DNA from: a virus
Virus record (IMG/VR): IMGVR_UViG_3300044630_001814
Location: 1-37,981 of that record
Direction: 5' to 3' (one strand)
Length of the DNA stretch: 37,981 bases
Part shown: piece by piece, positions 812 to 37,011 of the stretch
Layout: each line of letters opens with the position of its first letter
Position numbering within the stretch: the stretch's first letter is position 1
Notes under the pieces: generated by a model
What the model was told of the DNA's origin: nothing
Seen by the model: the letters and a program-made list of their open reading frames with translations, nothing else
Database searches by the model: none
Made by a program: the position numbers and the translations under genes

Positions 812-1805
812 AGATATTGTAAAAGAAATTGGTGGTGAGTATACACAACTTGCTGCTGACATTGATGAGACGGAGACTTATGTTGATACGGGTTCATACA
901 TTTTTAATGCACTGGTTTCAGGTAGCATATTTGGTGGTGTATCTGGGAATAAAATTACTGCTATTGCTGGAGAGTCTTCTACTGGAAAGACTTTTTTCTC
1001 TCTCGCAGTGGTTAAGAATTTTCTTGATACTAATCCCGATGGTTACTGTCTCTACTTTGACACTGAGGCTGCTGTTACCAAATCTCTATTAGAAAGTAGG
1101 GGTCTTGATACTAATAGAATTGTAGTTGTAAATGTTGTCACTATCGAAGAGTTTAGATCTAAGGCATTGAAGGCAGTGGATCTTTATCTGAAGAGAAAGG
1201 AAGACGAACGCAAACCCTGTATGTTTGTGTTAGATTCTCTAGGTATGCTTTCTACTGAAAAGGAAATTGATGATGCTCTAAATGAAAAGCAAGTTAGAGA
1301 TATGACAAAATCCCAATTGGTTAAGGGTGCATTTAGAATGCTAACTCTTAAACTTGGGCAAGCAAAGATTCCTATGATTGTTACTAATCACACATACGAT
1401 GTTGTTGGTTCGTATGTTCCAATGAAAGAAATGAGTGGTGGATCTGGATTAAAATATGCAGCATCTACAATTGTATATCTTTCCAAAAAGAAAGAAAAAG
1501 ATGGAACAGAAATCGTTGGCAATATCATTAAATGTAAAACTCATAAATCTAGATTGAGTAAAGAAAATAAAGATGTTGAAGTTCGTCTGTATTATGATGA
1601 TCGTGGACTTGATAAGTACTATGGTCTTCTTGACCTTGCCGAAAAACATGGTATATTTAAGAAGGTAGGAACAAGGTATGAAGTTGGGGATGGAACCACA
1701 CAATTTGGAAAAACTATTAATGAGAATCCAGAAAAATATTTCACCCAAGAAGTAATGCAGGCATTGGACGAAGCAGCAAACAAAGAATTTTCTTATGGAG
1801 GTTAA
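798..1805 (+). CDS. uvsX: UvsX RecA-like recombinase
   Basis: A 335-residue strand-exchange ATPase that forms filaments on single-stranded DNA during phage recombination, repair and recombination-dependent replication. The Walker A motif GESSTGKT lies at residues 58-65 and a Walker B-like strand ([11 protein letters not shown]) near residue 140. The later stretch [21 protein letters not shown] matches the loop region of the family. The ATG follows GAGGATAAAA, a reasonable ribosome-binding site. The length suits UvsX of cyanophages, which is shorter than T4 UvsX (about 390). The stop codon overlaps the start of gp41 by one base (TAATG). The assignment is firm from motifs and context. Confidence 0.95.
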
Positions 1806-9718: not shown

Positions 9719-12012
9719 GTAACGGAACAAAAGTAGTAAAGAGAAATGGATCTATTGAGTCTTTGGATCTCGATAAGATGCATTTGATGGTTGAGGAGTC
9801 TTGTAAGGGTCTTGCAGGAGTCTCTGCTTCTCAAGTTGAAATGACATCTGGAATTCAATTTTATGATGGAATTAGCACCAAAGAAATTCAAGAGATTCTT
9901 ATTCGTAGTGCTAGTGATTTGATTGATCTAGATCATCCAAATTATCAGTTTGTAGCAGCACGGCTTCTACTTTTCTCAGTAAGAAAAAATCTATATGGAA
10001 AACTTCATGAATTTCCACATCTAGAAGATCATGTTAACAGGTGTGTTGCAGCAGGAATTTATGACTCTGAAATTTTTCTGAAGTATTCTAAAGAAGAAAT
10101 TAATAAAATCAATTCATTTATTGACCATGAACGAGACATGCTGTTTACTTATGCAGGTCTTCGTCAAGTAGTAGATAAATATTTGGTTCAGGATAGAAGT
10201 TCTGGGAAGGTATACGAAACTCCTCAGTTCATGTATATGATGATAGCACTGACTATTTTTGCAGAATATCCTAAAAGTACAAGACTTGATTACATTCGCA
10301 AATACTACAATGCAATCAGTAAGCACAAAATCAACATCCCAACACCAATCATGGCAGGGGTCAGAACCCCCCTTCGTCAGTTTGCAAGTTGCGTTCTGGT
10401 TGATGTTGATGACTCCCTCGATAGTATCTTTAGTTCTGATATGGCTATTGGCAGATACGTTGCTCAACGTGCAGGTATCGGCATTAACGCAGGCAGAATC
10501 CGTGGCATCAACTCTAAGATCAGAGGTGGAGAAGTTCAACACACAGGTGTTGTTCCTTTCCTTAAGAAGTTTGAATCAACTGTACGTTGCTGCACACAAA
10601 ATGGAATCCGTGGTGGATCAGCTACTGTCCACTTTCCAATCTGGCACCAAGAAATAGAAGATATTCTTGTACTGAAAAATAATAAAGGCACCGAGGACAA
10701 CCGTGTTAGAAAACTTGATTACTCCATTCAAATCAGCAAACTCTTTTATGAGAGGTTCATTCAGGATGGTGAAATCACACTTTTCTCCCCGCATGATGCA
10801 CCTGGACTTTATGATGCTTTCGGAACAGACAAGTTTGACGATTTATACGTTCAATATGAGAACAATTCGTCCATTCCGTCGAAAACTGTTAAAGCACAGG
10901 AACTCATTCTTAGTCTCCTCAAAGAACGTGCTGAAACAGGTCGCATCTATATTATGAATATAGATCATTGCAACTCTCACTCATCCTTCAAAGATAAAAT
11001 TGAGATGAGCAATCTGTGTCAAGAAATTACTCTTCCAACTGTCCCCTTGGACCATATTGATGATCCTAATGGTGAAATTGCTTTGTGTATTCTTTCTGCT
11101 ATCAATGTTGGTAAAGTAAAAGATGATGAAGAATTTGAAGAACTTTGTGATCTTTCTGTACGTGGATTGGAAGAACTGATTGATTATCAAAAGTATCCAG
11201 TTCTTGCTGCAGAACTTTCGACTAAAGCACGTAGATCACTTGGAATAGGTTTTATTGGTTTAGCACACTATTTGGCAAAACTTGGATACAATTATGATTC
11301 TCAAGAAGCATGGGATGCTGTACATGGACTTTCTGAGTCCTTCCAATATTATCTCTTGAAATCTTCTAATGAACTTGCTAAGGAAAAGGGATATTGTGAG
11401 AACTTTGGACGTACTAAGTATTCGGATGGCATTCTTCCAATTGATACTTACAAAAAAGACGTAGACGAAATTTCATCAATTGCACTTCAACATGATTGGG
11501 AAACTCTTAGAGCATCTATCCTACAACACGGTCTCAGGCACTCAACACTGTCTGCACAAATGCCATCGGAGAGCAGTTCCGTTGTGTCAAACGCAACCAA
11601 TGGAATCGAACCTCCTCGTGGATTCTTGTCCGTTAAAAAGTCAAAGAAAGGACCACTCAAACAAATTGTTCCACAATATCAACATCTTAAAAATAACTAT
11701 ACGTTACTTTGGGATATGGAGTCCAATCGTGGTTATATTAATACTGTTGCTGTGATGCAAAAGTTTTTTGACCAAGCAATCAGTGGAAACTGGTCTTATA
11801 ATCCAGAAAACTATTCGGATAATGAAGTTCCAGTATCTGCCATGGCACAAGACTTCTTGACAACTTATAAGTATGGATGGAAGACTTCTTATTATCAGAA
11901 TACATATGATAATAAGACTGATGAAATTAAGGAGGAACCACAAAATATCGAAAACCTACTTAACGAACTACTAAACTCGGAGGAAGAGTCTTGTGAATCA
12001 TGTGCAATTTAG
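9715..12012 (+). CDS. nrdA: Ribonucleotide reductase class Ia, large subunit
   Basis: The catalytic alpha subunit, which reduces NDPs to dNDPs for phage DNA synthesis. An ATP-cone occupies about residues 5-95 (KVVKRNGSIESLDLDK). FASCVLVDVDDSLDSI carries one of the redox cysteines, SNLCQE is the NxCxE active site, and the C-terminal CESC pair is the thiol relay that re-reduces the site. The frame opens further upstream with a TTG at 9703, but the ATG at 9715, overlapping the primase stop, is preferred, giving 765 residues, the usual length. All key residues appear present. It overlaps nrdB. Confidence 0.95.
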   Translation: MSNGTKVVKRNGSIESLDLDKMHLMVEESCKGLAGVSASQVEMTSGIQFYDGISTKEIQEILIRSASDLIDLDHPNYQFVAARLLLFSVRKNLYGKLHEFPHLEDHVNRCVAAGIYDSEIFLKYSKEEINKINSFIDHERDMLFTYAGLRQVVDKYLVQDRSSGKVYETPQFMYMMIALTIFAEYPKSTRLDYIRKYYNAISKHKINIPTPIMAGVRTPLRQFASCVLVDVDDSLDSIFSSDMAIGRYVAQRAGIGINAGRIRGINSKIRGGEVQHTGVVPFLKKFESTVRCCTQNGIRGGSATVHFPIWHQEIEDILVLKNNKGTEDNRVRKLDYSIQISKLFYERFIQDGEITLFSPHDAPGLYDAFGTDKFDDLYVQYENNSSIPSKTVKAQELILSLLKERAETGRIYIMNIDHCNSHSSFKDKIEMSNLCQEITLPTVPLDHIDDPNGEIALCILSAINVGKVKDDEEFEELCDLSVRGLEELIDYQKYPVLAAELSTKARRSLGIGFIGLAHYLAKLGYNYDSQEAWDAVHGLSESFQYYLLKSSNELAKEKGYCENFGRTKYSDGILPIDTYKKDVDEISSIALQHDWETLRASILQHGLRHSTLSAQMPSESSSVVSNATNGIEPPRGFLSVKKSKKGPLKQIVPQYQHLKNNYTLLWDMESNRGYINTVAVMQKFFDQAISGNWSYNPENYSDNEVPVSAMAQDFLTTYKYGWKTSYYQNTYDNKTDEIKEEPQNIENLLNELLNSEEESCESCAI

Positions 12013-13177
12013 AACAACTGCAGAAACTAATAAAACCATGAATGGAATGACGGTATTTAATACCAATGAGGTAGATTCAAAGAAACAACCCATGTTCTTT
12101 GGTCAACCTCTTGGGGTTCAAAGATATGATTCATACAAGTATCCTATTTTTGATAAACTAACTCAGCAACAACTTGGATATTTCTGGAGACCTGAAGAGG
12201 TCTCTCTTCAGAAAGATCGTGCTGATTATCAAACTCTTAGACCTGAACAGAAGCACATCTTTACTTCTAATTTGAAGTATCAGATTCTTCTTGATTCTGT
12301 TCAGGGTCGTGGTCCTGGTATGGCATTTATTCCATACTGCTCTCTTCCTGAATTGGAAGCATGTATGACTGTGTGGGAATTCATGGAAATGATTCATAGT
12401 CGTTCCTATACTTACATTATCAAGAATGTGTATTCAGATCCTTCTGAAGTCTTTGATACTATTCTAAGTAATGAAAAGATCCTAGAAAGAGCATCATCTG
12501 TAACAGGGGCATATGATGATTTTATCAATAGTGCTCAAAGTTATGGTAATAGCAATCTTTGGGCACACGCAGTAGAAGGTGTTCCTTATGCTCAAGAAGA
12601 AAGATATGAATTAAAAAGAAAACTTTACCGAGCAATTGCCAATGTCAACATTCTCGAAGGTATCAGGTTTTATGTCTCGTTCGCTTGCAGTTTTGCGTTT
12701 GGAGAACTTAAACTTATGGAGGGATCCGCTAAAATTATCTCTCTCATCTCAAGAGACGAAAATCAGCACCTTGTCATTACTCAAAACATCCTCAATAAGT
12801 GGCGTGAAGGTGATGATCCAGAAATGCAACAAATTGCTAAAGAAGAAGAGGGGTGGGTGAGAAATGCCTTTGAAAATTGTGTAAATGAAGAAAAAAGGTG
12901 GGCAGAATATCTTTTCAAAGATGGTTCTATGATTGGTTTGAATGATAAACTACTGTGGAACTATGTTGAATGGATTGCAAATCGTCGTATGAAATCAATT
13001 GGTCTTAAACCAATGTATGATGTTCCTGCAAAGAATAATCCACTTCCTTGGACTGAGCATTGGATCAGTTCTAAAGGTCTTCAAGTTGCTCCTCAGGAGA
13101 CAGAAGTTGAAAGTTATGTGGTTGGTGGAATCAAACAAGATGTGAAAAAGGATACATTTGCTGGATTTAAACTGTAA
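11993..13177 (+). CDS. nrdB: Ribonucleotide reductase class Ia, small subunit
   Basis: The beta subunit, which holds the di-iron centre and tyrosyl radical that activates NrdA. The family core KKQPMFFGQPLGVQRYD is followed by YFWRPEEV. The metal and radical region is WEFMEMIHSRSYTYII (Glu, His and the radical Tyr), and SRDENQH gives the second Glu/His set. The longest frame starts at a GTG at 11993, nine bases after GGAGG, inside the end of nrdA. In-frame ATGs at 12038 and 12047 would give 379 or 376 residues, closer to E. coli NrdB (376), so the true start is uncertain. The rest is clear. Confidence 0.93.
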   Translation: MNHVQFRTTAETNKTMNGMTVFNTNEVDSKKQPMFFGQPLGVQRYDSYKYPIFDKLTQQQLGYFWRPEEVSLQKDRADYQTLRPEQKHIFTSNLKYQILLDSVQGRGPGMAFIPYCSLPELEACMTVWEFMEMIHSRSYTYIIKNVYSDPSEVFDTILSNEKILERASSVTGAYDDFINSAQSYGNSNLWAHAVEGVPYAQEERYELKRKLYRAIANVNILEGIRFYVSFACSFAFGELKLMEGSAKIISLISRDENQHLVITQNILNKWREGDDPEMQQIAKEEEGWVRNAFENCVNEEKRWAEYLFKDGSMIGLNDKLLWNYVEWIANRRMKSIGLKPMYDVPAKNNPLPWTEHWISSKGLQVAPQETEVESYVVGGIKQDVKKDTFAGFKL

Positions 13178-13210
13178 CACATTATACAAATTTATTATCC
13201 TATATAAAAA

Positions 13211-13258
13211 TACGTTCATTGCATTAATGCAACGGAAGTAGGGAAACCGAAGGAACGC
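13211..13258 (+). ncRNA. Glutamine-type riboswitch (Downstream-peptide motif)
   Basis: CGTTC at 13213-13217 pairs with GAACG at 13253-13257 to form P1. TTGCAT (13219-13224) pairs with ATGCAA (13227-13232) in a second hairpin. The conserved core reads CGGAAGTAGG and then ACCGAAGGAACGC, which is the hallmark of the Downstream-peptide/glnA RNA family that binds L-glutamine in cyanobacteria and their phages. It lies 30 bases upstream of a short ORF at 13289, as that motif normally does. It probably controls that peptide in response to host nitrogen status; the direction of control is not visible. Confidence 0.9.
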
Positions 13259-13288
13259 TCTTTAGCCTAAAAATTAAGGAGAACCATC

Positions 13289-13447
13289 ATGTCACAAGCA
13301 AAATATCGTGGTTGTCAGTACAATACTGATACACCTAAAGAAGAATATCGTAAGTGGTATTCTCAAACTCACGCACCAGCACACCCACAGAATACATATC
13401 GTGGTGTTGCCTACCGTCCATGCAATAATCAAGAGATATCAAAATGA
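13289..13447 (+). CDS. Riboswitch-controlled small YRG-repeat peptide (DUF4278-like)
   Basis: A 52-residue ORF preceded by AAGGAG eight bases before its ATG. It contains two copies of the aromatic-Arg-Gly motif, KYRGCQYNTDTP near the N-terminus and TYRGVAYRP near the C-terminus. That is the pattern of small cyanobacterial DUF4278-type peptides found downstream of this glutamine riboswitch class. A strong terminator follows within 15 bases, so riboswitch, peptide and terminator form one small unit after nrdB. The biochemical role is unknown; related small nitrogen-regulated peptides act as inhibitors of glutamine synthetase in cyanobacteria, but I see no direct proof here. Confidence 0.85.
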   Translation: MSQAKYRGCQYNTDTPKEEYRKWYSQTHAPAHPQNTYRGVAYRPCNNQEISK

Positions 13448-13458
13448 ATTTGTTATTA

Positions 13459-13484
13459 AGAGGGTCCTATGACCCTCTTTTTTT
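13459..13484 (+). terminator. Rho-independent terminator
   Basis: AGAGGGTC (13459-13466), a CTAT loop, and GACCCTCT (13471-13478) are followed by a run of T. It ends the nrdB/riboswitch-peptide unit and directly abuts a late box. Confidence 0.92.
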
Positions 13485-13491
13485 ATAAATA
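13484..13491 (+). promoter_or_regulatory. T4-type late promoter TATAAATA
   Basis: An exact TATAAATA starts within the terminator's T-run, 21 bases upstream of the gene at 13513. Confidence 0.85.
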
Positions 13492-13512
13492 ACTAAAAAC
13501 ATAATCATTAAG

Positions 13513-14550
13513 ATGTCCAGAATTAATAGACTATACGAAGGTGTTGGATCAGAGCACCCAGATATTGCAGGACAAAAGGAATTTGCAAGTAAAGTGGATG
13601 CTGAAATTGCTCGTAGAAGGAAAGCAAGAGCACAGAAAAAAGGTCCACAACTTCCTGGATTTATTAAGTCTGTAAAGAAAGAAGAATATGAAATTGATGA
13701 AGAGACAATGACTTCTTCTGATAAGAAAAAGGAGAAGGAACTGAAAAAGAAATATGATCCTTCTGGAATGAAGGCATCTATGATTAAGCAATATGGTCCA
13801 GAAAAGGGAAAGCAAGTATATTTTGCAACCATTCGCAAGCAAGCAATGGAAGGTGTAGAACAGCAGTCTGCAAGAGAAAGAATTTCTTCAATGCTTGCTG
13901 AAGCAAAGCAAGATCTTATTCTAGAAAAGGCAAGAGGAACCAGACCCAAAAAGACTGTCCATGCTTATGATGTGGATGAAACCCTGTTTTCTCACGGTAA
14001 AAAGGGCAAACCAAACGTAAAGGTTCATGTAAATGATGAGTCTGGAAAAAGAGTTAAGAGTTTAAGCAATCAAGAATTTAATACTCATAAACTTGAAAAG
14101 GGTCATAAGTATGATTTTAGTGAATTCCAGAGTGCTAAAACATTCTCAAAAACTTCAAGTCCAAATAAGAAAGTAATTAAAGATATCAAGAGAAAGCAGT
14201 CAAGAGGACAAAATGTTCACTTAATTACTGCTCGTTCTAAGTTTGATAAACCAAGTGAATTCCAGGGACATCTTAAGAAGCATGGAGTGAATGTTGACAA
14301 ATCAAATATTCACTATACTGGTGGAATGAAAGGTAGTGATATTGGTGATAAAAAGGTAAAAGTTGCAAATGCTATTGCTAAGAAGAGTGGTGCTAAAAAG
14401 ATGCATATGTATGATGATGCAGCAAAAGTGCATAAGTCATTTGAAAAGGAAAAGCAAAATAAACCAACTTCAATGAAGATTAAAACTCATATGGTAAAAC
14501 CAGACAAATCTGGTGAGTCTAGAGTTCGTTCTTATCAAGCAACAAAATAA
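13513..14550 (+). CDS. HAD-fold protein with prohead-like N-terminal region
   Basis: A 345-residue basic protein. Residues about 1-145 resemble cyanophage prohead/core proteins, including KKKYDPSGMKASMIKQYGPE followed by KGKQVYFATIRKQAM, a motif shared among such proteins. From about residue 148 a HAD-type phosphatase core appears: HAYDVDETLF (motif I, D153 and D155), LITARS (motif II) and MHMYDDAAK (motif IV-like acidic pair). The HAD superfamily includes polynucleotide 3'-phosphatases, but the substrate here is open. A canonical late promoter just upstream suggests it is made late and may be packaged. Confidence 0.78.
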   Translation: MSRINRLYEGVGSEHPDIAGQKEFASKVDAEIARRRKARAQKKGPQLPGFIKSVKKEEYEIDEETMTSSDKKKEKELKKKYDPSGMKASMIKQYGPEKGKQVYFATIRKQAMEGVEQQSARERISSMLAEAKQDLILEKARGTRPKKTVHAYDVDETLFSHGKKGKPNVKVHVNDESGKRVKSLSNQEFNTHKLEKGHKYDFSEFQSAKTFSKTSSPNKKVIKDIKRKQSRGQNVHLITARSKFDKPSEFQGHLKKHGVNVDKSNIHYTGGMKGSDIGDKKVKVANAIAKKSGAKKMHMYDDAAKVHKSFEKEKQNKPTSMKIKTHMVKPDKSGESRVRSYQATK

Positions 14551-16226: not shown

Positions 16227-16248
16227 CCCAGTTATCTGGGTATAAATA
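16227..16248 (+). promoter_or_regulatory. Hairpin abutting a late promoter TATAAATA
   Basis: CCCAG (16227-16231) pairs with CTGGG (16236-16240) across a TTAT loop one base after the tRNA. TATAAATA (16241-16248) follows immediately, 31 bases before the porin start. The hairpin may help tRNA 3' processing; the late box should drive the porin. Confidence 0.75.
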
Positions 16249-16279: not shown

Positions 16280-17800
16280 ATGAAATTTTTTAAACAACTG
16301 ATGCTTGCACCCGTTGCTCTTGGTATTGTTACTCCTGCTGTTGCGAATGCCGCAGATCTTAAAATTGCAGCAGTTAACCAATACTCTTCTGAGCAAGCAA
16401 CAAGTGTGACTCAATTTTCTGATGTTCAACCTTCAGACTGGGCATATCAGGCACTTAGCAACCTTGTAGATCGTTATGGTTGCGTAGCAGGTTATCCTAA
16501 CGGCACTTATGGTGGTGGTAAGGCAATGACCCGTTATGAGGCAGCAGCACTTCTGAATGCTTGCCTTGATCGTGTAACTGAAGTGACTGATGAACTCAGT
16601 CGTCTTACAAAAGAATTCCAAGAAGAACTTGCTGTTGTTCGTGGTCGTGTTGATGGTTTAGAAGCAAAAGTTGGTCAACTGGAAGCACAGCAATTCTCCA
16701 CTACTACCAAACTACGTGGTGAAACTAAGTGGGTTCTGGGTGGTCTGTCTTATGGTGGTGATCGTAAAGATGATTACGATGCTCTCCGTGAAGCAGTTTC
16801 TTTCAACTATGATGTGAAACTGAACCTGGATACTTCTTTCACTGGCAAAGACCTGCTGCGTACTCAACTTCGTGCTGGTAACTTTGATGATAGTGGTTTC
16901 GGTGCTGCTCCTACTCCTCTTACCAAACTTGATGCTGGTTTCCAAGAAAACCTTGGTAATGCTGATGGTGGTGATGTAGTGGCAATTAACCGTCTGTACT
17001 ACAAGTTGCCTGCTGGTAATGATGTAACTATTGTTGCTGGTCCTCGTGTTCGTCAAGATGATATCCTGCCTGTGTGGCCTTCTGTCTACACTGCTGATAA
17101 GATCCTGAACATCTTCCAGTTCAACGGTGCTCCTGGTGCCTACAGCAAGGTTCTGGGTGGTGGTTTCGGTGCTTCCGTTAAGAAAGGTGGTTGGACCCTG
17201 GGTGGTGCCTACGTTGCTGCTGATGCAGACAAGGGTGATAGTGCTGAAGGTGGTATGTTCAATGGCAACTCTGCTGCTTCTACCACTGCTCAACTTGCAT
17301 ATACTGCTAAGAACTGGAACCTGACTGGTGCCTATACTTATTCCAACAACGGTGTAAGTATTCAAGGCACTCCTACTCTGACTTCGGCACTTCCTAATAG
17401 TGTAACTGGTGGTCAGACCAACTCGTTCTCTCTTGCTGGTTACTGGCAACCTTCCACCTCTGGTATTGTTCCTTCAATCTCTGCTGGTTGGGGTTATAAT
17501 AACTCTGGTTATACTGAGGGTGGTGATACTATTTCTCAGTCCTGGTATACTGGTCTGGTTTGGAAGGATGTAATTGCTAAGGGTAATGCTCTTGGATTTG
17601 CAGTTGGACAACCTACTTTTGTTACCAAGCAGAACGATGTAAATGCTCAAGATGGCAACTATGCTTTCGAGGCATATTACAAGATGCAAGTTACCGATAA
17701 CATTGCCGTAACTCCTGCTGTGTTCTATCTGAGCAATCCTACTGGTACTGATGGTCTTGATACCTTCGGTGCTTTGGTTCAGACAACCTTCAAGTTCTAA
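16280..17800 (+). CDS. Cyanobacterial-type outer-membrane porin (SLH + OprB-like barrel)
   Basis: A 506-residue protein with the full layout of a cyanobacterial major porin (SomA type). A signal peptide (MKFFKQLMLAPVALGIVTPA, then VANA) is followed by an SLH domain at about 45-98: FSDVQPSDWAYQALSNLVDR, GYPNGTY, MTRYEAAALLNACL. A coiled coil spans about 100-137 (LTKEFQEELAVVRGRVDGLE). The rest is a Gly/Thr/aromatic-rich beta-barrel ending in TTFKF; the terminal Phe is the outer-membrane assembly signal. It appears intact. Codon choice is richer in C and G than its AT-rich neighbours, consistent with host origin or high expression. A canonical late promoter precedes it. It could alter uptake (such porins have been linked to iron or carbohydrate passage) or the infected cell's surface. 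Confidence 0.92.
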   Translation: MKFFKQLMLAPVALGIVTPAVANAADLKIAAVNQYSSEQATSVTQFSDVQPSDWAYQALSNLVDRYGCVAGYPNGTYGGGKAMTRYEAAALLNACLDRVTEVTDELSRLTKEFQEELAVVRGRVDGLEAKVGQLEAQQFSTTTKLRGETKWVLGGLSYGGDRKDDYDALREAVSFNYDVKLNLDTSFTGKDLLRTQLRAGNFDDSGFGAAPTPLTKLDAGFQENLGNADGGDVVAINRLYYKLPAGNDVTIVAGPRVRQDDILPVWPSVYTADKILNIFQFNGAPGAYSKVLGGGFGASVKKGGWTLGGAYVAADADKGDSAEGGMFNGNSAASTTAQLAYTAKNWNLTGAYTYSNNGVSIQGTPTLTSALPNSVTGGQTNSFSLAGYWQPSTSGIVPSISAGWGYNNSGYTEGGDTISQSWYTGLVWKDVIAKGNALGFAVGQPTFVTKQNDVNAQDGNYAFEAYYKMQVTDNIAVTPAVFYLSNPTGTDGLDTFGALVQTTFKF

Positions 17801-31279: not shown

Positions 31280-32959
31280 GTGGAACTTAGAAAACCATCG
31301 GACTTTTTTGGTAAAAAATCGGAGGAAAGCAACCTTCCAGTTGTGGAGTCTGATATCTCTTTGCATGAAGAATTAAATAAGGTAGAGATTTTATCTGATC
31401 AAATTAATCAGTTACAACAGGAACTTACTCAAAAAGTTGTTAAAACTGATTTGGAGAATTTAGTAATCTCTCAAATCAATACTATGCAGGAGAACTTTGA
31501 TCACCTGCAAAATGATTTTAAAAAGTCAAATAAAAAAGATATTAGTGAGTTTAAAGAAAGGGCATTAAAACTAACTGAACTTGTTGAAAATCTTGTAGAG
31601 TATGAAATTCCAAAATATAAAAAGCAAGTTACAAAAAATGAAATTTATGTTAGTGAAGAAGTAAATAATGTCAAAGAAATTGTAGAACAAAATATCAATA
31701 ATATTCGAGATGAAATTGATAGTAAATTCGACAATATTGTTGATGCACTTGATAACAATATAGAATATTTTAATGAAAAACTTAATGAGACTTCGACTCA
31801 AGTTAAGGAAACTAAAAAAGTTTATACGAATATTTCTAAAACATTAGAAACTAGAGTATCTCAAGAAAATGAACAATTTGAAGAATACTCTAAAATTATT
31901 GAAAATCTTTACAAACAATTTAATGAACTTTCTTCTTTTCTTAGGGGGGAAGTATCTACAAATGAACGACATTTATTAAATGTAGATAAGTATCTTAAAG
32001 AGCATTATCAGGAATTACTTGATCTAAAGGTAGAAGTTTTTGATGAAATTAAAAAACTTCCTGTAGGAAATATTCAAGAAAATATTAAAAGACTTGAAAA
32101 TAAGATTGATTATATTAAAGAGACTTATTCTAAAATTGAACCAGAAGTCATTGTAAAAGAAGTCATCAAGGAAGGAATTCTCAATGAACCACCAGATACA
32201 AAGAATACTGATCCATTAACTCCACTCAATCAAAACTTTGTTACTTTAGATCAACTTCAACAACATTATAAATTATTCATTAATCGTATTCAACAACAAC
32301 TCTCCACATTAGGTGGTGGTGGGGAAACTAAACTAAAGTATCTTGATGATATTGTTGGTATTGCTACTAATGCTAGTGCTTATGACAATAAGTTTTTGAA
32401 GTATAATCATAGTATTGGTAAGTTTGAGTTTGTTACTGTTTCTGGTGGAGGAGGTGGGGAAGGTACTCAAGGTACTCAAGGTACTCAAGGTACTCAAGGT
32501 ACTCAAGGTACTCAAGGTACTCAAGGTACTCAAGGTACTCAAGGTACTCAAGGTACTCAAGGTACTCAAGGTATTCAAGGTATTCAAGGTATTCAAGGTA
32601 CTCAAGGAACTACAGGTTCTGGTACTCAAGGTATTCAAGGTATTCAAGGTCTTCAAGGTATTCAGGGTACTCAAGGATTGCAGGGTGTTCAAGGTATTCA
32701 AGGAACTACAGGTACTCAAGGAACTATAGGTTCTGGTATTCAAGGTATTCAAGGAATATCAGGATCTGCAGGTTCTTCTATATTAGGAATTGCAACAGCA
32801 GGGGGAATAGTTGGAACTGGTGTAACTTTATTAGATTTTAGAGGTTCTGGAATATCTACAATTACAGTTTCTTCTGGAATAGGTACTATAAATATAGGAG
32901 GTGGAGGTGGTAGTTCCACTCCAGATATAAGTTCAGTAATGATGGGAATGATATTCTAA
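31280..32959 (+). CDS. Fibre protein with coiled coil and collagen-like GTQ/GIQ repeats
   Basis: A 559-residue protein starting at a GTG. MELRKPSDFFGKKSEE is a leader shared by cyanophage virion proteins. Residues about 25-290 are a long alpha-helical coiled coil, and 320-395 a mixed segment that ends in a Gly run. About 396-500 is a collagen-like stretch of G-X-Q and G-X-G triplets (GTQ, GIQ, GLQ, GVQ, TTG, SGS), interrupted by short breaks. A Gly/Ser/Thr-rich C-terminal beta part follows, ending MMGMIF. It is probably a trimeric tail fibre or whisker-like fibre. The triplets are coded by nearly perfect 9-base repeats. Confidence 0.85.
   Translation: MELRKPSDFFGKKSEESNLPVVESDISLHEELNKVEILSDQINQLQQELTQKVVKTDLENLVISQINTMQENFDHLQNDFKKSNKKDISEFKERALKLTELVENLVEYEIPKYKKQVTKNEIYVSEEVNNVKEIVEQNINNIRDEIDSKFDNIVDALDNNIEYFNEKLNETSTQVKETKKVYTNISKTLETRVSQENEQFEEYSKIIENLYKQFNELSSFLRGEVSTNERHLLNVDKYLKEHYQELLDLKVEVFDEIKKLPVGNIQENIKRLENKIDYIKETYSKIEPEVIVKEVIKEGILNEPPDTKNTDPLTPLNQNFVTLDQLQQHYKLFINRIQQQLSTLGGGGETKLKYLDDIVGIATNASAYDNKFLKYNHSIGKFEFVTVSGGGGGEGTQGTQGTQGTQGTQGTQGTQGTQGTQGTQGTQGTQGIQGIQGIQGTQGTTGSGTQGIQGIQGLQGIQGTQGLQGVQGIQGTTGTQGTIGSGIQGIQGISGSAGSSILGIATAGGIVGTGVTLLDFRGSGISTITVSSGIGTINIGGGGGSSTPDISSVMMGMIF
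32462..32569 (+). repeat. Tandem 9-base repeat, 12 perfect units
   Basis: Twelve identical copies of GGTACTCAA (Gly-Thr-Gln) stand in a row, followed to about 32756 by variants (GGTATTCAA, GGTCTTCAA, GGAACTACA and others). Because the unit is a multiple of three, copy-number changes would lengthen or shorten the fibre without breaking the frame. Not a CRISPR, since there are no spacers. Confidence 0.95.
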
Positions 32960-35775: not shown

Positions 35776-35812
35776 AGTCAGGAAACAAAGACAAATGTTA
35801 ATGTTTCTTACC

Positions 35813-35908
35813 ACTTCTCAAACCGAGATCACGAGAAGTAAAGCATCTCTCATATCCACGATGGAGGGTGTCGTGGAGTATAATGTAACCATTCAGTTCC
35901 CCCTGAAT
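35813..35908 (+). promoter_or_regulatory. Structured leader of psbA with three hairpins
   Basis: The 160-base leader holds ACTTCTC/GAGAAGT (35813-35819 with 35833-35839), CCACGA/TCGTGG (35856-35861 with 35871-35876) and ATTCAG/CTGAAT (35891-35896 with 35903-35908). No ribosome-binding site precedes the ATG. The hairpins could control stability or translation of psbA mRNA. Confidence 0.6.
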
Positions 35909-35931: not shown

Positions 35932-37011
35932 ATGACTGCTACAATTGCTCAACAACGTTCCACAAATACCTGGAACCAATTCTGCGAGTGGGTTACTTCC
36001 ACTAACAACCGTCTGTATGTTGGTTGGTTTGGAGTCCTTATGATTCCTTGCCTACTTGCTGCTACGACTTGCTTCATTATCGCATTCGTCGGTGCTCCCC
36101 CTGTGGACATTGATGGCATTCGTGAACCCGTTGCTGGTTCACTCCTCTACGGAAACAACATCATCTCTGGTGCTGTAATTCCTTCGTCCAATGCAATCGG
36201 ACTTCACTTCTATCCTATCTGGGAAGCTGCTTCCCTAGATGAGTGGCTATATAATGGTGGACCATTCCAACTGGTTGTCTTCCACTTTCTGATTGGTATC
36301 TATGCCTACATGGGTCGTGAATGGGAACTTTCTTACCGACTGGGTATGCGTCCTTGGATTTGTGTTGCCTACTCTGCACCCGTTGCTGCTGCTTCTGCAG
36401 TGTTCCTGGTCTATCCCTTTGGTCAAGGATCCTTCTCTGACGCAATGCCTCTTGGGATTTCGGGAACTTTCAACTACATGCTTGTTTTCCAGGCAGAACA
36501 CAACATTCTCATGCATCCTTTCCACATGCTGGGAGTTGCTGGGGTCTTCGGTGGTTCTCTTTTCTCTGCTATGCACGGATCTCTTGTCACCTCTAGTCTT
36601 GTACGTGAGACGACAGAATCTGAATCACAAAACTACGGTTACAAGTTCGGACAAGAAGAAGAAACATACAACATCGTAGCTGCTCACGGTTACTTCGGTC
36701 GTCTGATCTTCCAGTACGCATCGTTCAATAACTCACGTTCGCTGCACTTCTTCCTTGCTGCTTGGCCTGTAGTTGGCATCTGGTTCACTGCTCTTGGTGT
36801 TTCTACGATGGCATTCAATTTGAATGGCTTCAACTTTAATCAAAGTATCGTTGATAGTCAGAACCGTGTAGTTAACACTTGGGCTGATGTTCTGAACCGT
36901 GCTGGACTTGGCCTTGAGGTAATGCACGAAAGAAATGCTCATAATTTCCCTCTGGACCTCGCTGCTGCTGAGAGCACTCCTGTTGCTCTTACCGCTCCTG
37001 CGATTGGTTGA
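35932..37011 (+). CDS. psbA: Photosystem II D1 protein
   Basis: A full-length 359-residue D1, beginning [20 protein letters not shown] and ending in the processing tail with [19 protein letters not shown]. The five membrane helices, the quinone-binding region ([20 protein letters not shown]) and the HxxxH-type ligands appear intact. Residue 130 is Glu (AYMGRE), the high-light D1 form, not the Gln of low-light D1. No intron interrupts it. Phage psbA replaces host D1 and keeps photosynthesis running during infection. It has an early/late promoter, a long structured leader, and a strong terminator just after the stop. Confidence 0.98.

Follow-up and report, generated by a model that had tools for sequence, protein, structure and literature searches.

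On the plus strand of the window, by which we mean the whole 37,981-nucleotide stretch of viral DNA analysed here, a glutamine-I (glnA) riboswitch aptamer begins 33 nt past the stop codon of nrdB (13177) and precedes an ORF for a 52-residue peptide with two YRG motifs, which is followed by a hairpin resembling an intrinsic terminator with a T tract (Table 1). A preliminary description of the DNA had placed a glutamine riboswitch between nrdB and this small YRG peptide, with a terminator behind it, and this arrangement is borne out. The window is a fragment of a T4-like cyanophage, with genes for DNA polymerase, RecA-like and DnaB-like replication proteins, a class Ia ribonucleotide reductase and a psbA-like protein. 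Elsewhere in it, a PhotoRC-II leader RNA (35799-35891, 56.1 bits) lies directly 5' of the psbA-like photosynthetic reaction-centre protein gene (35932-37011). The ORF at 16280-17800, with an exact late box at 16241, combines S-layer-homology and OprB porin domains, the make-up of a cyanobacterial outer-membrane porin, here in a phage contig, and the ORF at 31280-32959 encodes 559 aa with collagen triple-helix repeats.

The stretch TATATAAAAA immediately 5' of P1 is weakly late-promoter-like; further matches to TATAAATA with one mismatch start at 13203 and 13205, no sigma-70 promoter for the unit was found on the plus strand, and the promoter of the unit is uncertain. The 3' border is marked by an exact late promoter box, one of six on the plus strand of the window. 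The preliminary description had also tied the peptide to ribonucleotide reductase. Comparison does not support this link: of 85 peptide loci with at least 1.5 kb of upstream sequence, just 5 have nrdB within that distance, so its adjacency here reflects local chance or a weak trend, and nrdB is an upstream neighbour outside the switch. Thymidylate synthase is found near the peptide locus in S-SRM01, P-SSM2, Bellamy, ACG-2014f and S-PM2, and other genes are found there in several isolates.

Table 1. Features of the riboswitch unit in the window, with examples of the inner ORF from related loci (working numbers with the prefix L).
Feature	Position	Strand	Basis or remark
nrdB, class Ia ribonucleotide reductase small subunit	11993..13177	+	PF00268 (Ribonuc_red_sm) E 1.3e-55; phrog_86 E 5.2e-171
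Late-promoter-like stretch TATATAAAAA, weak	13201..13210	+	2 mismatches to TATAAATA at 13201; immediately 5' of P1
Glutamine-I (glnA) riboswitch aptamer	13211..13261	+	RF01739, 56.7 bits
Aptamer P1	13213-13217/13253-13257	+	
Aptamer P2	13219-13223/13228-13232	+	
Aptamer J2/3 and E-loop strand	13233-13240	+	
Aptamer P3	13241-13242/13247-13248	+	
Aptamer E-loop 3' strand, GAAG	13249-13252	+	
Aptamer linchpin	G13235-C13258	+	located from the analogous pair G23-C60 (PMC11477058)
Expression platform: anti-SD CUCUUUAG (13258-13265) with SD strand UUAAGGAG (13274-13281)	13258..13281	+	
Predicted ligand-free extension: GAAGG (13249-13253) with CCAUC (13284-13288), beside start codon	13249..13288	+	folding prediction
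52-aa YRG peptide ORF, DUF4278-like / phrog_5049	13289..13447	+	phrog_5049 E 6.7e-9
Intrinsic-terminator-like hairpin AAGAGGGTCCTATGACCCTCTT and T tract	13458..13485	+	hairpin 13458-13479, 9 pairs, 5 G-C
Exact T4-type late promoter box TATAAATA	13484..13491	+	3' border of unit, before ORF 13513-14550
Inner ORF of nested leaders, examples	L143 about 2744-2970; L202:2744-2970; L325 about 1490-1720		

A cmscan search of the whole window against 4227 families matched the aptamer to RF01739 (glnA) well above the gathering score of 35 bits, with an E value of 4.6e-10. The match covers positions 1-53 of the 53 in the model, contains zero non-standard pairs and is far beyond chance. The canonical glutamine-I letters of J2/3 and the E-loop are present (GGAAGUAGG...CCGAAGGAACGC), and in the covariance-model alignment the core reads ACGGAAGUAGG / CCGAAGGAACGC, with both E-loop strands and the G..C linchpin in place; the G23-C60 linchpin of the crystal structure, from which the latter was located, is ligand-dependent (PMC11477058). 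Hence the element is of the glutamine-I/glnA class and not of the Downstream-peptide/glutamine-II class. The same stretch also gave weak matches to other families, the L20 leader and Yfr19 among them; these scored under the respective cut-offs and were taken as chance. By itself the element is another example of an already known type, and it belongs to the same class as the glnA RNAs annotated in T4-like cyanophages (S-CREM1, PMC9964418; PMC9602691). It shares with glutamine-I RNAs the aptamer architecture, core letters, linchpin and site before a DUF4278-type gene, and differs in lying in a phage, ahead of a two-repeat YRG peptide without an IF7-like tail.

CUCUUUAG, which follows P1 directly, is complementary to UUAAGGAG, and the two are predicted to fold into an SD-hiding hairpin (-5.7 kcal/mol, z -2.2) in which the SD is paired with a probability of about 1.0. 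Such hairpins recur with changing sequences (CACC/GGUG, CAUC/GAUG, CACUUUAC/GUAAAG) in most of 83 distinct leaders from viral contigs, with a mean z of -2.1 against dinucleotide shuffles; about a dozen of the 83 are misfits, and two rows are the first units of tandems. Folding of the free window RNA further predicts pairing of the P1 5' strand with the E-loop strand and an outer closing stem between GAAGG and CCAUC, in which the pairing probability of CCAUC is 0.82-0.93 (0 at the mismatched A) and falls to 0.02 or less once the aptamer is constrained. When P1, P2 and one P3 pair are enforced, secondary-structure prediction loses the outer closing stem and keeps the 8-bp SD hairpin. A CC-containing spacer precedes the AUG in 127/186 YRG leaders in comparison to 119/1363 background starts, an excess that is merely suggestive of the outer closing stem because the YRG leaders are related. 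A conserved 5'-strand antisequestor that would extend P1 across leaders was also considered and rejected: leaders of the cyanophage group allow such pairs to be drawn, those of other groups do not.

Glutamine binding and ON control are known for the glutamine-I class, and both glutamine-I and glutamine-II leaders, in Synechocystis and from Prochlorococcus, are reported to be ON switches (PMC6316151, PMC11288750, PMC6698751). We infer that the window leader is best explained as an ON switch acting on translation, because of these experiments on the class, because C13258 is common to the linchpin and the SD stem, and because the SD-hiding hairpin recurs with different sequences in related leaders. 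At low glutamine, CUCUUUAG would pair with UUAAGGAG and the YRG peptide would be kept off. Binding of L-glutamine would zip up P1 and engage C13258, the base with which the SD-hiding stem begins, as the linchpin partner of G13235, and the bound fold would also take up the GAAGG strand that otherwise provides the outer closure of the SD stem. With C13258 recruited to the linchpin and GAAGG taken up by the aptamer fold, the start site would open, and the YRG peptide would be made at high host glutamine. As secondary-structure prediction leaves the SD hairpin closed, its opening would have to be brought about by the linchpin, by tertiary structure or by folding kinetics.

The window peptide ends after its second YRG motif. 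Against PF14105 (DUF4278) it scores 20.7 bits (E 5.3e-4), under the Pfam cut-off of 25.3; this cut-off is passed by phage YRG peptides from other viral contigs with the aptamer in front, at 26.5 and 37.5 bits. Relatives of the peptide are encoded at 104 viral loci. An AlphaFold model has a mean pLDDT of 65, i.e. low confidence; a PDB sequence search with the peptide gave nothing significant, nor did an NCBIfam search with the peptide and the inner ORF product described below. In hosts, glutamine-I switches mostly precede DUF4278 genes (PMC6316151), and YRG proteins lie downstream of the aptamer at 44/125 places in bacterial genomes. Among 45 host YRG proteins, gathered under rules slightly unlike those behind the latter count, 41 have three YRG-type repeats and 16 have an IF7-like C-terminal tail (AR..(M/L)..R..ML). 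The phage peptide shares its YRG repeats, and a glutamine riboswitch as control element, with gifB/IF17 and cyanobacterial DUF4278 proteins (PMC6316151), whereas the window peptide has two repeats and lacks the tail. It is probably the phage counterpart of the DUF4278 YRG module in cyanobacterial nitrogen regulators, and more likely a small protein-binding adaptor of nitrogen metabolism and signalling than an inactivator of glutamine synthetase. Taking leader and peptide together, we give a probability of about 0.8 to the reading that the window holds a glutamine-I riboswitch acting at translation as an ON switch, ahead of a phage DUF4278 YRG module.

Three other readings of the window were weighed against this one. 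The preliminary description had assigned the RNA to the Downstream-peptide class and proposed a covariance-model search with both families; when run, the search gave a match to glnA (56.7 against 35 bits) and overturned the Downstream-peptide assignment. A glutamine-II riboswitch with a pseudoknot beside the ribosome site would have the same P1 letters, CGUUC/GAACG, and small DUF4278 peptides often lie downstream of either class (PMC6316151, PMC6698751), but RF01704 gave zero matches in 12900-13700 even at E 10, and glutamine-I is marked out by three features seen here, namely the E-loop GGAAGUAGG..CCGAAGG, a P3 hairpin and a G-C linchpin, so that a glutamine-II element here is extremely improbable. 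An OFF switch, in which glutamine would stabilise P1, the SD hairpin would stack on it and the peptide would be shut off at high glutamine, draws on the fact that P1 and the SD hairpin adjoin and are compatible in secondary structure. Against it stand the ON behaviour reported for the tested leaders of both classes (PMC6316151, PMC11288750, PMC6698751) and the sharing of the linchpin base C13258 between the bound aptamer and the SD stem, and we regard OFF control as unlikely. Finally, the preliminary description had suggested binding assays of the peptide with host glutamine synthetase, but direct inhibition of this enzyme is not supported. An IF17-like inactivating factor, made at high glutamine to stop ammonium assimilation, would fit host gifB (IF17), which has the same riboswitch class and a DUF4278 part (PMC6316151), and host homologs with YRG repeats plus the tail do follow the aptamer. 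The tail is nevertheless absent from the window peptide, and the DUF4278 half of IF17 is reported to be dispensable for inactivation of glutamine synthetase (PMC6316151), for which reason direct binding of the enzyme is not the natural prediction for this peptide. We regard an inactivating factor as unlikely, too.

Viral contigs commonly carry glutamine-I aptamers, with at least 120 such stretches, and several unrelated families of 30-80 aa peptides lie downstream of them, the YRG peptides being one; glutamine-I switches in T4-like cyanophages have been listed before (PMC9602691, PMC9964418). An exact TATAAATA box is present within 32 nt upstream of P1 in 24/81 leaders in comparison to 0.2% of background windows, and nearly all of these boxes start at -20 to -15; a late box at about this distance would place the 5' end of the transcript almost on that of the aptamer. 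Plain tandem glutamine-I aptamers were seen in a number of viral contigs (L007, L026, L034, L038, L048, L052, and also L059, L064, L073, L079, L106, L110), in which they precede unrelated families of tiny peptides (ITDNPFYP-type, YRG-type and others). Glutamine-I aptamers were also observed in marine proteobacterial genomes, mostly labelled Alphaproteobacteria (L455, L461, L479, L487, L490, L506, L523, L534), where by eye the ORFs behind them look like glutamine synthetase or ammonium transporter genes; these contrast with a review restricting the class to cyanobacteria.

At the 93 loci that encode relatives of the window peptide, the leader is a plain single core in 34 and takes another form in 59. 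The window has the single form, whereas most relatives of its gene carry a nested double aptamer, an arrangement that is absent from the window itself. The nested leader reads CGUUCA-P2-ACG[x]AAGUAAG-[P3]-CGGAACGG-(short loop) in its 5' part and, after the loop, CGUUCA-P2'-ACGCAAA-[P3']-CUGAAGGAACG[y]. Covariation provides good support for a fold in which an outer glutamine-I structure holds a second, permuted glutamine-like unit inside its P3, and cmscan aligns some of these leaders to RF01739 with the inner part as an insert of 41-48 nt in P3. The set comprised 196 distinct sequences from loci L122-L201, L204-L451, L202, L203 and L324-L331. The search patterns fixed the P1 strands and AAGUAAG, and in one scan also x = C, with y left free in both scans; the invariance of the fixed letters is therefore no evidence. 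A search that relied on nothing but the peptide and the 3' half yielded 46 distinct elements, and the inner GGAACG was present in all of them.

Two ordinary tandem aptamers would be the obvious alternative to nesting, as tandem glutamine riboswitches are known for the class (PMC2864571, PMC9481103), with 157 doublets described (PMC9481103), and true tandems occur among our own viral loci. The identical P1 strands of the two units do not discriminate between the readings, the lineage with a C-G linchpin pairs under either, and whole-structure scores are alike, since each reading includes P2 and P2'. P3 and the linchpins separate the two. The nested outer linchpin [x]/[y] is complementary in 196/196 distinct sequences, as G-C in 106 and C-G in 90, and the inner linchpin is C..G in 194/196. 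Read as tandems, 106 of the same sequences would set C against C in unit 2 and leave the unit-1 G opposite a non-partner or in a wobble, with G.G in unit 1 for 104, and the tandem linchpins each fail in 16 of the 38 rows of an alignment. Furthermore, P3 joins both halves with compensatory changes: in its 8-bp class the inner pair is U-A in 100, G-C in 29 and A-U in 8, and pair 5 is G-C in 123, G-U in 11 and A-U in 6, with two standing C.A/A.C mismatches in most members, whereas the 53 members of the 5-bp class show almost complete pairing. From the 38-row alignment RNAalifold proposed the outer P1, the inner P1', P2 and P2' unprompted. In the nested structure 95.0% of cells are paired, with 107 double changes against 30.3 in shuffles and a covariation score of 0.268 against 0.071. 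That the double element is an ordinary tandem is very improbable. Both arrangements place two glutamine-type units before one gene; the nested form, in contrast to the tandems, has one unit inserted in P3 of its partner and bridged by the outer linchpin, and closes the inner P1 by a short loop.

The nested leaders are followed by a YRG peptide in 185/196 cases. A sigma-70-like promoter lies upstream in 88/186 in comparison to 4.1% of background, with its -10 ending mostly 7-10 nt before P1. Current Rfam models detect the nested form poorly: in the first set the best RF01739 matches were 31.3-44.3 bits, either side of the cut-off of 35, RF01704 gave 22.7-32.1 bits, under its cut-off of 33, and the elements of P-SSM4, P-HM2 and S-SSM7 gave zero RF01739 matches at E 0.1. 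In a fasttree phylogeny of 190 peptides, built on 51 columns and poorly resolved, so that the counts are rough, the linchpin type requires 7 changes, single versus nested form 17 and presence of the ORF described below 42; four pairs of identical peptides carry different leader types.

The nested leader occurs in T4-like cyanophage isolates and was read directly in P-SSM2, P-SSM4, S-CREM1, S-SRM01, P-HM2, S-SSM7, Bellamy, ACG-2014f, DSL-LC03 and S-PM2, the usual form of the outer P1 5' strand not being seen in the elements of P-SSM4 and P-HM2. DNA similar to one nested leader occurs in 329 phage records, many of the matches being partial. In 84,980 bacterial and archaeal genomes the nested core was not found with a strict, exact pattern (AAGTAAG preceded by any base), which could miss divergent forms. 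P-SSM4 also has a manA RNA (184 bits, L325:1015-1200) a few hundred bases upstream of its nested glutamine element. The 99-nt glnA element annotated in S-CREM1 is nested (90.4 bits with model R1) and precedes a YRG peptide. It had been annotated by an Rfam match only (PMC9964418; group listing in PMC9602691), and the section of PMC9964418 on this element does not mention nesting. In the searchable literature, whose coverage is incomplete so that a prior mention is possible, neither the nested form nor a reading frame inside it turned up, and the form is apparently undescribed.

The loop of the inner P2' is longer than 100 nt in 121/196 nested sequences, and each of these 121 loops contains an ATG ORF starting 3-5 nt past the inner CGUUCA. 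Its stop codon falls at one fixed site in 112/121 (UGA in 87, UAA in 25), 8 nt before the last base of the element and within the outer E-loop strand. The products, 120 of them distinct, are 49-92 aa long, and with a single exception they fall within 49-69. Codon differences among a subset of 48 were mostly synonymous (5278 versus 2282 pairwise single differences, 1612/324/5624 by codon position), so the inner frame is under selection at the protein level. Two products that were tested match phrog_504, which has no assigned function (E 2.5e-5 and 3.5e-7), and the inner ORF of P-SSM4 is annotated as PSSM4_169.3.

The inner unit has the C..G linchpin letters of glutamine-II (ACGC / GAACGG), corresponding to C19:G41, and keeps the other letters that contact glutamine in that class, namely C1:G40, G18 and C39 (PMC6698751); on this analogy it may be a second glutamine site. 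In contrast to glutamine-II (RF01704), it is joined through P3, as in a three-way junction, and not through a P2 pseudoknot, as the covariation of P3 shows. Pairing of CUGAAG with CUUUAG was tried for the variant leaders as a P2 of the glutamine-II kind, but several of them, L167 and L179 included, do not allow it. A ribosome translating the inner ORF would be expected to open the inner unit together with P3 and some of the outer core; translation of the ORF and the nested fold should therefore exclude each other, and this predicts opposite control of the two small proteins. We lean towards a picture in which the window is the plain form of a family whose commoner, nested form has a circularly permuted aptamer in P3 and, in many phages, a second gene with opposite control of the two products.

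For the window alone, these data are consistent with a T4-like cyanophage that senses host nitrogen by a glutamine riboswitch and ties this signal to a DUF4278-type peptide. If the nested model is true, two-site glutamine sensing would sharpen the response, and a single RNA would raise one small protein while lowering the other. A nested aptamer that holds a conserved frame inside a ligand-sensing fold would be a new riboswitch architecture, one that occurs in the well-studied marine phage isolates P-SSM2, P-SSM4, P-HM2, S-PM2 and S-SSM7. The family would also give an entry to the effects that the many unnamed YRG peptides of cyanophages have on host nitrogen metabolism.
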